32,243 bases of DNA, from contig JAENXK010000010.1 of the NCBI GenBank assembly GCA_016649615.1, positions 1 through 32,243 on the forward strand, written 5' to 3'. The stretch comes from Thermoleophilia bacterium (GTDB lineage Bacteria > Actinomycetota > Thermoleophilia > Solirubrobacterales > 70-9). Both the position numbers and the translations under genes were made by a program. The stretch's first letter is position 1, and each line of letters opens with the position of its first letter. Positions 10,733 through 15,414 of the stretch are shown here, one piece after another. The notes beneath the pieces were generated by a model. The model was not told where the DNA came from. It did no database searches and saw only the letters and a list, made by a program, of their open reading frames with translations.

Positions 10733-11221
10733 ATGGGAAAGAAGAACAGGAAGAAGAGGGCCCCCGCGTCCGGTGACGTAGCCACGAACCGGCGGGCACG
10801 GCAGAAGTTCGAGTTGATCGAGAAGATGGAGGCCGGAATCGTGCTGCTCGGCACCGAAGTCAAGGCCCTGAGGCAGGGGGACGCACAGATGGGCGATGCC
10901 TACGCTGTGATCGAGGACGGTGAGGTCTGGCTGCGCAACCTTCACATCCCGCCCTATGCCCCGGCGACGGTCAACAACCACGAACCCGAGCGTCCCCGCA
11001 AGCTCCTGCTCCACCGGAACGAGATCGAACGCCTGATCGGCAAGGCTCAGCAGAAAGGGCTGACCCTGATCCCGTCGCGCATCTATTTCAAGGGCCCGCG
11101 CGCAAAGGTCGAGCTCGCGCTGGCCCGTCACAAGGAGGGTCGGGACCGGCGCCGGGAAATCGCCGACCGAGACGTCCAGCGCGACGTCGAGCGGGAGTTC
11201 AAGGGCCGCTACCGGTCCTGA
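10733..11221 (+). CDS. smpB: SsrA-binding protein SmpB
   Basis: A 162-residue tmRNA-binding protein needed for trans-translation. It delivers alanyl-tmRNA to ribosomes stalled on mRNAs lacking a stop codon. Conserved blocks are TNRRARQKFELIEKMEAGIVL (with the flanking GTEVKALRQGDAQMGDAY), VWLRNLHIPPYAP, RKLLLHRNEI, KGLTLIPSRIYFKGPRAKVE and LALARHK. The C-terminal tail is basic and Asp/Arg-rich (DRRREIADRDVQRDVEREFKG), as expected for the segment that becomes helical in the mRNA channel. The first ten residues are unusually Lys-rich. The tmRNA partner, ssrA, lies 3.8 kb downstream on the same strand, with two minus-strand genes and one plus-strand gene between. Confidence 0.97.
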   Translation: MGKKNRKKRAPASGDVATNRRARQKFELIEKMEAGIVLLGTEVKALRQGDAQMGDAYAVIEDGEVWLRNLHIPPYAPATVNNHEPERPRKLLLHRNEIERLIGKAQQKGLTLIPSRIYFKGPRAKVELALARHKEGRDRRREIADRDVQRDVEREFKGRYRS

Positions 11222-11241: not shown

Positions 11242-11305
11242 AGATCGGCACCATGGCCGACCCCCGGTTTGTCCCGGACTGTCGGGCGTGTAAGGATTGA
11301 CCCGG

Positions 11306-12946
11306 ATGAGTACGCGATTCAGCCTTGTGATCTGCCTCGCTGCGCTGGCCCTGGCGGCTGCGCTGCCGGTTGCTGCCCACGGCGCCGATGGCAGTGGGAC
11401 CGATCAGGCCCCGGTCACCCTCAGCGACGAGCAGCTGTCTGCCCTGGAAGACGCTTCCGGCCAGAGCAGCGACGACCAGAGCGTGTTTCAGGACGTTTCC
11501 GACTTCGTGACCGACAACGCTCCTTATTTCATCATCGGCATCGTGATTCTGGCGGCGATCGTCGCCGGGATATTCATCATGCGGGGACGATCCCATCCGG
11601 AGGGAGCGGCCGAATCATCGACCGGCACGGGGCCGCCCAGCTCTGCCGAGATGAAGCGGCGCAAGCGGGCCGCGATCCAGCGATCCCGGGAGGAAGAGCG
11701 ACTCCGGAGAAAGGGCGGGCCGGACAGCCGCCGCTCGGGCGCTCAGGCAGCATTGCCCGCGGCCGCAGCGACCGGTGCCGCATCCGCGGCCGCCGTCGAC
11801 CCGGTCACCGCCGAAAAGCAGGCCGCTCGCGACCAGCGCATGGCCGCCGCCGCGGTGGCCCGCTCGGGTGGCGCCATCCCGGCCCCGGCCTCGCCAAGCC
11901 AGACCGCGCCTTCGGCTGCGGTAACGGCAACACCTGTTCCCGGCCCGGCAGGCTCCGCATCGGACACGGGTGCCGAACCCGACACCGTTGTAACCGGGGC
12001 ACCGGCCGCGGCCCCACAGCCTCCGCCGGCAGCGGCCTTTGCCGCCGGGGCCGCCGGGGGCGCCGTGGCAGGCAGGGCCGCGACGAGTTCCGCAAGTCCG
12101 CCGGATGAGCAGGCCCCGGACCAGGCGGCTCACGACGCTGAGGCCCGGCTTCGGGCAAAGGTCGAAGAAATCAAGGCCGAACAGGCCGGAACGCCTGGCG
12201 CTTCTTCGGCGGAAGACCAGCTACGCCGGGTCGAAGAGCTCGAACGGGATCTGGAGGCATCGGATCCTTCGCCTCCCCTGACTCCGGGCCTGGCATCCGT
12301 CGAGCGGCGACTGAGCGCCGACAGCAAGGAGCGTGACCGGACCCTCCGTGAAGCGGAGGAGCGTCTTCGCCGGGTCGAGCGGCGGGCGGAAGACGCCGAG
12401 CGGCGGGCCGCTTTCGCCGAGCGCCTGGCCCAGCTCAAGATCGAAGAGTCCGATCGCGAGCGGCGGCTGAACGATGTCGTGTCCGGCATCGACCGGGCCG
12501 AGGAGCGGGCGCGGGAGGCGGAAGCCCGTGCCGAGTCGGCAGAAAAGGCCGCGGCCGCGGCTCTCGAGGTACGCGACGCCCCCCGGGCCGAGGTGCCTGA
12601 CACGGCCTTTCCGGGACCGCTGAAGACGGGCACCGAGTCTGGTCCGAGCTTCTCGGAGTCGCGGGCCGAAAGCCCCCCGGGCCGTTCCCGGCGACCTTCC
12701 GGTGGTCGGGCCGAAAAGAGCGACCGGCCGGAGAGTGCCGGTGCGGACACCGGTCACGGCGCAATCGATCTGAACAGTGCGACCTTCGAGGATCTCCGCG
12801 AGGCTGACCTGTCGGTCACCCAGGCAACCCGCATCCTGGCCTACCGGGAGCGCTTCGGCGGATACCGTTCGGTCGACGACTTGGAAAAGGTACCCGGCTT
12901 CCCGGAAGACCTGATCGAGAGCCTTCGCGGCCGCATCACCGTCTGA
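11306..12946 (+). CDS. Membrane-anchored coiled-coil protein with C-terminal helix-hairpin-helix domain
   Basis: A 546-residue protein with no full-length family that I recognise. Residues 1-26 look like a signal peptide. Residues 27-72 are acidic. A TM helix covers 74-92 and is followed at once by MRGR and a Lys/Arg-rich stretch (117-136), which by the positive-inside rule puts the rest in the cytoplasm. Residues 140-265 are Ala/Pro-rich and disordered. Two coiled-coil stretches cover about 275-315 and 331-420. Residues 487-545 (IDLNSATFEDLREADL...KVPGFPEDLIESLRGRI) match the ComEA-type double helix-hairpin-helix. ATG 11306 is preferred over TTG 11297 because AAGGA at 11292-11296 is at suitable spacing and the signal peptide then starts cleanly. 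ComEA keeps this domain outside the cell, so the predicted topology is unusual. Confidence 0.8.
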   Translation: MSTRFSLVICLAALALAAALPVAAHGADGSGTDQAPVTLSDEQLSALEDASGQSSDDQSVFQDVSDFVTDNAPYFIIGIVILAAIVAGIFIMRGRSHPEGAAESSTGTGPPSSAEMKRRKRAAIQRSREEERLRRKGGPDSRRSGAQAALPAAAATGAASAAAVDPVTAEKQAARDQRMAAAAVARSGGAIPAPASPSQTAPSAAVTATPVPGPAGSASDTGAEPDTVVTGAPAAAPQPPPAAAFAAGAAGGAVAGRAATSSASPPDEQAPDQAAHDAEARLRAKVEEIKAEQAGTPGASSAEDQLRRVEELERDLEASDPSPPLTPGLASVERRLSADSKERDRTLREAEERLRRVERRAEDAERRAAFAERLAQLKIEESDRERRLNDVVSGIDRAEERAREAEARAESAEKAAAAALEVRDAPRAEVPDTAFPGPLKTGTESGPSFSESRAESPPGRSRRPSGGRAEKSDRPESAGADTGHGAIDLNSATFEDLREADLSVTQATRILAYRERFGGYRSVDDLEKVPGFPEDLIESLRGRITV

Positions 12947-13608: not shown

Positions 13609-14988
13609 TCAATTCTGCGCAGGCTCCAGGGCTTCGACCAGGCGGAGCCAGATCTCGCTTCGGGTGGGGAAGGCCGGTACCACGTGGCGCAATGTCCCGA
13701 CCGGCACCTCGGCGACAATCGCGAGCGTGGCGGCGTAGACCCACTCCGCAGTCTCGAAGCCGACGAAGGTGGCGCCGATGAGCAATCGGCGCTCCCGGTC
13801 GATCAGGAACCGGCAGGTGCCATCCACGTCCTTTCCGGTGAACGAAGCACCGGCCGTCGAGTTGGTCGGGACGTCAACCGCCTGAACGTCGATCCCTTCT
13901 TCGATCGCCTCGGAACTGGTCTTGCCGACCGCGGCGATCTGGGGATCGGTGAAAGTGACCCGGGGAGATCCGAGAGCTTCGGAGGTCGCCCGCGCCTCGC
14001 GCCCGAGGATCTGCTCGGCGGCGACCCAGGCCTGGTACTTGCCCATGTGGGTCAGAAGTGCCCGCCCGTTGACATCGCCGACGGCGAACAGCCAGCTGAA
14101 GCCTTCCACTCTGAGGGTATCGTCGGTGTTCAGGAATCCGCCTCCCTCGACTCCGAGTGACTCCAGACCGAGCTCGCCGGTCTGAGGCCGGCGGCCGGTT
14201 GCGACCAGCAGCTCTGACGCCGCGACCGTGCGGCCGTCGCCCAGGGTCACCGTGATCCGGCCGTCCTTTTCGCTGACCCGTTCGGCCCTTGCCCCCAGAG
14301 CAAGTTCGACTCCGTGCCGGTTCCGCAGCGAGTCGGCCAGAAACTCGGAGGCGAAAGGCTCCTCGCGGGGGACCAGCCGGCTCTCGTACTCGACCAGGGT
14401 GACCTTCGTACCGAGGCTGGACCATGCCTGGGCCAGTTCGACTCCGACCGGCCCGCCCCCCAGGACCACCATCGAGTCCGGGACCGACCGGGCGGTGGTC
14501 GCCTCACGGTTGTTCCATGCCGCCACCGAATCGAGGCCCTCGATCGGTGGCATCGCGGCCCCGGTGCCGGTAGCGACCACTACCGCGCGGTCGGCGATCA
14601 GCACGTTGGCTCCCACCCGGACCTCGCGTTTGCCACAGAGGACCCCGGCGCCGCGGAACAGCGATATGCCCTTGTCTTCGAGCCAGGGAATCTGGCTGGA
14701 ATCGTCGAGATTGTGGATTACCTCATCCCGGCGCTCGAGCACGGCCTCCGGAGCGATTTCTCCGGTCACCGCCTGGCTCGCCCCGGGTACCCGGGACGCT
14801 TCTGCCAGCAGTTCTCCGGGGCGCAGCAGAGCCTTCGACGGCATGCACGCGTAGTAGGAGCATTCGCCTGCCACGAGGTGCTGCTCGATGATCGCAACGT
14901 TCAGTCCCCCGTCCGCCAGGCGGCCGGCCAGCACCTCTCCAGCCGGTCCGGCTCCTACTACGACAGCATCGAACGCATGAATGCTCAT
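13609..14988 (-). CDS. FAD/NAD(P)-dependent pyridine nucleotide-disulfide oxidoreductase
   Basis: A 459-residue flavoprotein of the dihydrolipoamide dehydrogenase/mercuric reductase fold. FAD-binding GAGPAG is at 12-17. The redox pair is Cys43/Cys48 in GECSYYACMPSKALLRP. The NAD-binding GGGPVG is at 177-182, with acidic Glu200 ending the second strand, which favours NADH over NADPH. The FAD-contacting AVGDVNG is at 302-308. A C-terminal dimerisation domain follows from about 341. In true lipoamide dehydrogenases the C-terminus carries a catalytic His in HPT.SE; here the block reads AFPTRSE, with Phe440 at that place, so lipoamide turnover is unlikely. ATG 14988 is preceded by GGAGGTG at ideal spacing. 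The longer upstream frame runs antisense through the tmRNA gene and is rejected. The physiological substrate is unknown. Confidence 0.9.
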   Translation of the reverse strand: MSIHAFDAVVVGAGPAGEVLAGRLADGGLNVAIIEQHLVAGECSYYACMPSKALLRPGELLAEASRVPGASQAVTGEIAPEAVLERRDEVIHNLDDSSQIPWLEDKGISLFRGAGVLCGKREVRVGANVLIADRAVVVATGTGAAMPPIEGLDSVAAWNNREATTARSVPDSMVVLGGGPVGVELAQAWSSLGTKVTLVEYESRLVPREEPFASEFLADSLRNRHGVELALGARAERVSEKDGRITVTLGDGRTVAASELLVATGRRPQTGELGLESLGVEGGGFLNTDDTLRVEGFSWLFAVGDVNGRALLTHMGKYQAWVAAEQILGREARATSEALGSPRVTFTDPQIAAVGKTSSEAIEEGIDVQAVDVPTNSTAGASFTGKDVDGTCRFLIDRERRLLIGATFVGFETAEWVYAATLAIVAEVPVGTLRHVVPAFPTRSEIWLRLVEALEPAQN

Positions 14989-15009
14989 CCGCCACCTCCG
15001 GTCGCACCA

Positions 15010-15038
15010 TTGACCACGTATCCCAGACACCGTACACT
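15010..15038 (+). promoter_or_regulatory. Promoter of the tmRNA gene
   Basis: TTGACC at 15010-15015 and TACACT at 15033-15038 are separated by exactly 17 bp, the best sigma-70-type promoter in the window. Transcription would begin near 15045, about 10 nt before the mature 5' end at 15055, which fits trimming by RNase P. It lies in the divergent gap with the oxidoreductase gene. Confidence 0.75.
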
Positions 15039-15054
15039 TGGCTGGCAGCATTCC

Positions 15055-15414
15055 GGGGACGACAGGCTTCGACGCGGTCGGTCCGTGCGGAGGGTTGCAG
15101 GTCGAGGATGTCGATGGCCTCGTAAAAAATCGGCAAAAAACCAATACGTGCGGACCATGAGTTCGCCCTCACCGCTTAGCTGATACCTAAGCGATGAGAG
15201 TCGGTCCTCCCTCGGCCCGTGGGGAGGGGCACCGGCTTCAGAAACGGGCTTACCCGCGAGGAGTGCTTCGGCCTCAAGGGGACAATTCAGAGGCTCGGCC
15301 TTCCGTAGTGCCTGCCGGCACGGCCCCCGGGAGGCGACAACAAAGCGCCGGCTAAGCCTGTAGACACTTTTCGTCACGCGGCTGCGGACGCGGGTTCAAT
15401 TCCCGCCGTCTCCA
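15055..15414 (+). ncRNA. ssrA: tmRNA (transfer-messenger RNA)
   Basis: The 5' end GGGGACG (15055-15061) pairs with CGTCTCC (15407-15413) to form the acceptor stem, with A15414 as discriminator; CCA is not encoded. The T-arm is GCGGG, TTCAATT, CCCGC (15390-15406). GACAGGCTTCGAC near the 5' end is the conserved tmRNA D-loop region. The tag reading frame runs from GGC 15132 to TAG 15177-15179 and encodes GKKPIRADHEFALTA, a typical charged-then-small-hydrophobic degradation tag. The resume codon follows an A-rich stretch (GTAAAAAATC). The tmRNA is charged with alanine and works with SmpB (10733) to rescue stalled ribosomes; the tag directs the product to proteolysis. The tag ends in ALTA instead of the usual ALAA. 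Confidence 0.97.

Follow-up and report, generated by a model that had tools for sequence, protein, structure and literature searches.

The window analysed here (32,243 nt of contig JAENXK010000010.1, from a Thermoleophilia bacterium) carries, directly downstream of smpB (10733..11221, + strand, PF01668), a gene for a membrane-anchored coiled-coil protein that ends in a helix-hairpin-helix (HHH) domain. The gene occupies 11306..12946 on the + strand as an open reading frame of 546 codons plus a stop, and a direct reading of the sequence places a Shine-Dalgarno-like AAGGA at 11292..11296 (+), 9 nt ahead of the ATG. Because orthologs in other species (approximately 500-790 aa) keep the same architecture, we do not regard the gene or its layout as chance, and both the gene and the order of parts described in an earlier note, made from the sequence of the window, are borne out in full.

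From the N-terminus, all on the + strand, the protein begins with a signal peptide (residues ~1-25, 11306..11380), read from the sequence and with an A-x-A site that is clearer in the orthologs. This is followed by an acidic outside segment (residues 26-73, 11381..11524) with 11 D/E and no K/R, which bears a conserved (S/A)DFVTDNAP motif immediately N-terminal of the membrane segment, and by a transmembrane (TM) helix (residues 74-93, 11525..11584), supported by hydropathy (Kyte-Doolittle 2.87) and by an AF2 model. The stretch after the TM helix (residues 94-147) is basic, with 14 K/R and 7 D/E, and includes a basic helix (residues 113-136, 11642..11713) recognised from ortholog comparison and the AF2 model. 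An Ala/Pro-rich linker follows (residues 137-270, 11714..12115; 37% Ala and 14% Pro over residues 148-270), which is mostly of low predicted confidence and differs in length among orthologs. The coiled coil (residues 329-423, 12290..12574) is the best-conserved region apart from the HHH; it is modelled as a single unbroken 95-residue helix with pLDDT block means mostly of 96-98, and its heptad-like period is equalled in only 1 of 2000 shuffles. The protein closes with a ComEA-type domain of two HhH motifs (residues 486-546, 12761..12943), assigned by fold and by a Pfam HHH_3 match (residues 486-545, E 7.6e-12) that passes the Pfam cut-off. The AF2 model, built on 14 orthologs, is confident in the HHH and of low confidence in the linkers; like all of our structure models, it represents the protein alone, free of any partner.

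The C-terminus is well supported by inference as cytoplasmic, as the earlier note had proposed from the positive-inside rule. Across 25 orthologs that have a TM helix, the 20 residues preceding it contain a mean of 1.1 K/R and the 20 that follow it 5.8, and the direction of this bias is identical in 25/25 (Wilcoxon p = 1e-5, although the rows are related and are not 25 independent tests). Signal peptides occur in genus g1 and in several g9 and g11 members, while g3, g8 and some g9 members have just a short N-terminal tail and a TM helix, again with K/R after it. In genera g2 (L046, L048), g6 (L052) and g4 (L111), the orthologs that occupy this locus immediately downstream of smpB have neither TM helix nor signal, as judged over the whole stop-to-stop frame, and their coiled coil and HHH must therefore be cytoplasmic. 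The same note held that an uncleaved signal peptide would invert the topology; this does not follow, as a protein with two hydrophobic segments would likewise have its C-terminus inside. A basic stretch comparable to residues 113-136 persists in g2 and g6, whose orthologs lack the TM helix, and this basic helix appears to be the best candidate for direct nucleic-acid or lipid contact, if there is any.

Structure prediction of the C-terminal domain, a check that the earlier note had called for, returns a ComEA fold. Modelled alone from 28 aligned rows, the HHH reaches a pLDDT of 92, and its top structural match is the ComEA of Geobacillus stearothermophilus (8dss; TM-score 0.86, 1.2 A, 35% identity), followed by 2duy and then by KIF22, Tex and PsbU. 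The HhH domains of Tex and KIF22 have this two-HhH core as well (TM-scores of 0.83 and 0.74, respectively) and are cytosolic or nuclear rather than secreted, but they belong to soluble multi-domain proteins, unlike ours, and KIF22 retains both Gly and Lys in its hairpin 1 (RIGPKK). The best sequence match in the PDB is to the N-terminal HhH domains of EEPD1 (9yi2; E 8.9e-15 over two domains), whose first hairpin, GVTRA, likewise lacks the second glycine, although EEPD1, a nuclease of human DNA repair, carries a catalytic domain and is unrelated in architecture.

When 28 heads of these membrane tethers and their orthologs are set against 18 ComEAs encoded in the same bacterial family, both hairpins differ. 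Hairpin 1 reads SVTQATR in the window protein (residues 503-509, 12812..12832, +), replacing GPxKA and its neighbours, and hairpin 2 reads GFP (residues 531-533, 12896..12904, +) in place of GIG. The second glycine is lost from both hairpins in 28/28 tethers and retained in 18/18 ComEAs, such that a GxG in both hairpins is found in 0/28 versus 18/18, and hairpin 1 of the tether heads is shorter by one loop residue. R498, S503, V504, T505 and R509 are fixed differences between the two sets and Q506 is nearly so; Q506 aligns with the K164/K166 position of ComEA. In G. stearothermophilus ComEA, the K166A protein does not bind DNA in EMSA (PMC9747964). This lysine is not diagnostic by itself, as the local ComEAs (L078-L095, L126) carry Thr at the DNA-contact position while keeping both GIG hairpins; only the hairpin glycines together with the whole residue set discriminate. 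Net charge was likewise dropped as a test for DNA binding, the tether HHH being at -4 and the local ComEAs (L078-L095) at -4 to -8. In a tree of only 66 columns, the tether heads and a set of soluble paralogs split from the ComEAs at a support of 96/92, with the caveat that the E-values and trees depend on a 64-residue domain. By this signature, the head would not be an ordinary DNA binder. Such strict conservation of the new hairpin residues points to selection acting on a particular surface, not to decay, and leads us to think that the head has a specific ligand; since the features of non-specific DNA contact are gone, a protein or nucleoprotein partner is favoured over plain DNA.

Tether-type heads are confined to a narrow group in our samples. 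With the HHH profile at a threshold of at least 60 bits, matches are found in 44 of the 50 sampled genomes of the window's GTDB family, many of whose member genomes are MAGs, and in none of the 101 other sampled genomes of the order. Those 101 genomes yield mostly ComEA-sized proteins (at most 56.5 bits) and an unrelated protein in G122. In samples of 299 genomes from the class and 396 from the phylum, only two weak, ComEA-sized matches appear outside the family at E <= 1e-13. The G122 protein (L112), from another family of the order, is an exported-type protein of 588 aa with a C-terminal HHH, encoded 2.5 kb after smpB; having an N-terminus of a different kind and a canonical hairpin 1 (GVG), it was rejected as a candidate member from outside the family and seems to be an independent HHH fusion in a comparable position. 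None of the NCBIfam models fits the window protein, and we found no report in the literature of a membrane-anchored cytoplasmic bacterial HHH protein.

Soluble coiled-coil/HHH paralogs with the same head adjoin genes for a family-4 glycosyltransferase and an FAD protein in g3, g8 and g10, and in g5 a more divergent long paralog precedes the FAD gene; the FAD protein resembles L-aspartate oxidase (nadB-like), these neighbours having been Pfam-tested in part. The long soluble proteins L049, L068, L124 and L127, with the same or a related head, lie beside the glycosyltransferase and/or nadB-like gene, and no match of this type is found in the genus of the window. In g2, two short genes (L075, L076) ending in the same type of HHH lie upstream of a WYL-domain regulator. 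These paralogs lend support to a cytoplasmic home for this type of head.

The position of the gene is highly conserved within the family. In 30/30 genomes in which both genes are seen on one stretch, the HHH gene is the next gene after smpB on the same strand, and the usual order is ftsE-ftsX-S41 peptidase-rnr-smpB-HHH. In the window, ssrA, which encodes tmRNA, lies at 15055..15414 (+), so that the earlier placement of the gene between smpB and ssrA is correct in order; two genes on the opposite strand, a metallophosphoesterase and a pyridine-nucleotide-disulphide oxidoreductase, nonetheless separate the HHH gene from ssrA. In most stretches of sufficient reach, ssrA is found further downstream, though not in L052 or L111. 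Read at its greatest length, the oxidoreductase ORF (13609-15144, -) overlaps ssrA (15055-15414, +) in antisense. Its first ~30 residues look conserved at other loci because they are tmRNA sequence, and translation probably starts at the Met of MSIHAFD, which lies outside ssrA. Elsewhere in the order, families that lack the HHH gene can also have smpB and ssrA close together with other genes between them, and genome G049 (96% complete) has smpB, the oxidoreductase and ssrA with a gap of ~88 bp at the place of the HHH gene and no tether-type HHH elsewhere in its genome. By this comparison, the smpB-ssrA neighbourhood predates the HHH gene. Since G049 and the other families have smpB and ssrA without it, the position of the gene is most simply an inherited context and trans-translation would have no need of the gene; the neighbourhood was thus dropped as a functional clue.

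We propose that the protein is a coiled-coil scaffold that is restricted to this lineage and faces the cytosol, and that its re-specialised HHH docks a partner, with a protein or a specific nucleoprotein more probable in this role than plain dsDNA; the case for this proposal as a whole is, in our judgement, evenly balanced. In such a single-pass inner-membrane protein, the N-terminus would be outside and the main functional parts cytoplasmic: the anchor would hold the protein at the inner face of the membrane, the disordered linker would provide reach, the coiled coil would form a dimer or oligomer, and the HHH, a ComEA fold put to new use, would serve as a docking head that keeps a cytoplasmic partner close to the membrane. 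The parts, the inward topology, the orthology, the restricted distribution and the hairpin changes are strongly supported by comparative sequence analysis; we infer the oligomerisation of the coiled coil, the reach of the linker, the docking and the kind of partner. Several observations weigh against the proposal: the loss of the key lysine does not by itself separate the two groups, as the local ComEAs also lack it, the net charge does not decide, phosphate might still be bound by the Ser at a helix N-cap and its two new Arg neighbours, and the basic helix might bind nucleic acid on its own.

A rival role is that of a membrane-to-nucleoid tether, in which the inward HHH, possibly aided by the basic helix, would bind the DNA of the chromosome and keep it at the membrane. 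The ComEA fold, the two tether-specific invariant Arg (R498, R509) beside hairpin 1, the presence of the kinesin KIF22 HhH among the fold matches, and a basic stretch kept in g2 and g6 even where the TM helix is gone all favour such a role. Against it stand the loss, in 28/28, of the second glycine in both hairpins, which the same-family ComEAs keep, the shortened hairpin 1 and the exchange of the DNA-contact lysine for Gln, and we consider it possible but unlikely. The suggestion of the earlier note that the HHH tethers nucleic acid or a nucleoprotein at the membrane is thereby divided: ordinary nucleic acid is weakened as the ligand, the DNA-contact features of the hairpins being replaced at fixed positions, while a specific nucleoprotein is still allowed. 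A special case of docking would be a ZipA-like or polarity scaffold, with anchor, Pro-rich linker and head recruiting a division or growth protein. ZipA-type anchors combine a single N-out TM helix, a flexible Pro-rich linker and a cytoplasmic head, and the window protein has this general layout; the proximity of ftsE and ftsX and the glycosyltransferase beside the soluble paralogs point in the same direction. The resemblance is of layout only, as the head is a two-HhH domain with no ZipA fold among its matches and is joined to a long coiled coil. Moreover, the ftsEX-smpB order is old in actinobacteria, related families without the HHH gene keep much of it, and the anchor is absent in three genera, which leaves this reading improbable.

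Two further readings would follow from the location or the annotation of the gene. As an accessory to trans-translation, the protein would connect the membrane with SmpB, tmRNA or stalled ribosomes, an idea that draws on the invariable place directly after smpB and that the earlier note had raised as a link with RNA or ribosome handling. Such a factor should be present wherever smpB and ssrA keep their neighbourhood; the gene is instead missing from G049 and from the other families of the order, where the two genes remain near neighbours, and genomes outside the family manage without it, making this role highly improbable and leaving the suggested link unsupported. The HHH_3 match and the matches to ComEA models, in turn, would suggest a competence protein, that is, a ComEA variant whose HHH lies outside the membrane. 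Both ComEA-model matches are below the cut-off in the window protein (TIGR01259, 32.6 bits versus 152.35; TIGR00426, 34.7 versus 53.1), and the same two models are matched by all 14 aligned members. ComEA, as in Bacillus subtilis (8dfk) and G. stearothermophilus, resembles the window protein in its HHH fold and N-terminal membrane anchor, but its HHH lies outside, with intact GxG hairpins and the DNA-contact Lys, and it has a middle (oligomerisation) domain where the tether has a coiled coil and long linker. The predicted inward topology, drawn from the 25 orthologs and those without a TM helix, and the separate tree group of the tethers speak against competence, as does the presence in the same genome of a normal comEA, a frame of 228 aa with a ComEC-like frame after it on another contig (C95), while the HHH gene adjoins smpB. 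We regard this role as barely conceivable.

Membrane-anchored ComEA-type HHH domains are usually read as DNA-uptake proteins. The family described here keeps the ComEA fold, is predicted to face the cytoplasm and has exchanged the DNA-contact chemistry for other fixed residues, such that automatic naming as 'ComEA' would be misleading. A distinctly speculative reading, which we doubt more than we favour, is a new class of actinobacterial inner-membrane scaffolds in which an inward DNA-uptake fold on a coiled coil, with a new and strictly conserved ligand site (R498, S503-Q506, R509), links the membrane to a specific cytoplasmic nucleic-acid or nucleoprotein partner, the anchor having been gained or lost between genera. 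The protein is found almost throughout one actinobacterial family, most of which is uncultured, and its anchorless orthologs provide a natural comparison for the effect of membrane tethering, and it may bear on how the interface between membrane and cytoplasm is organised in Thermoleophilia.
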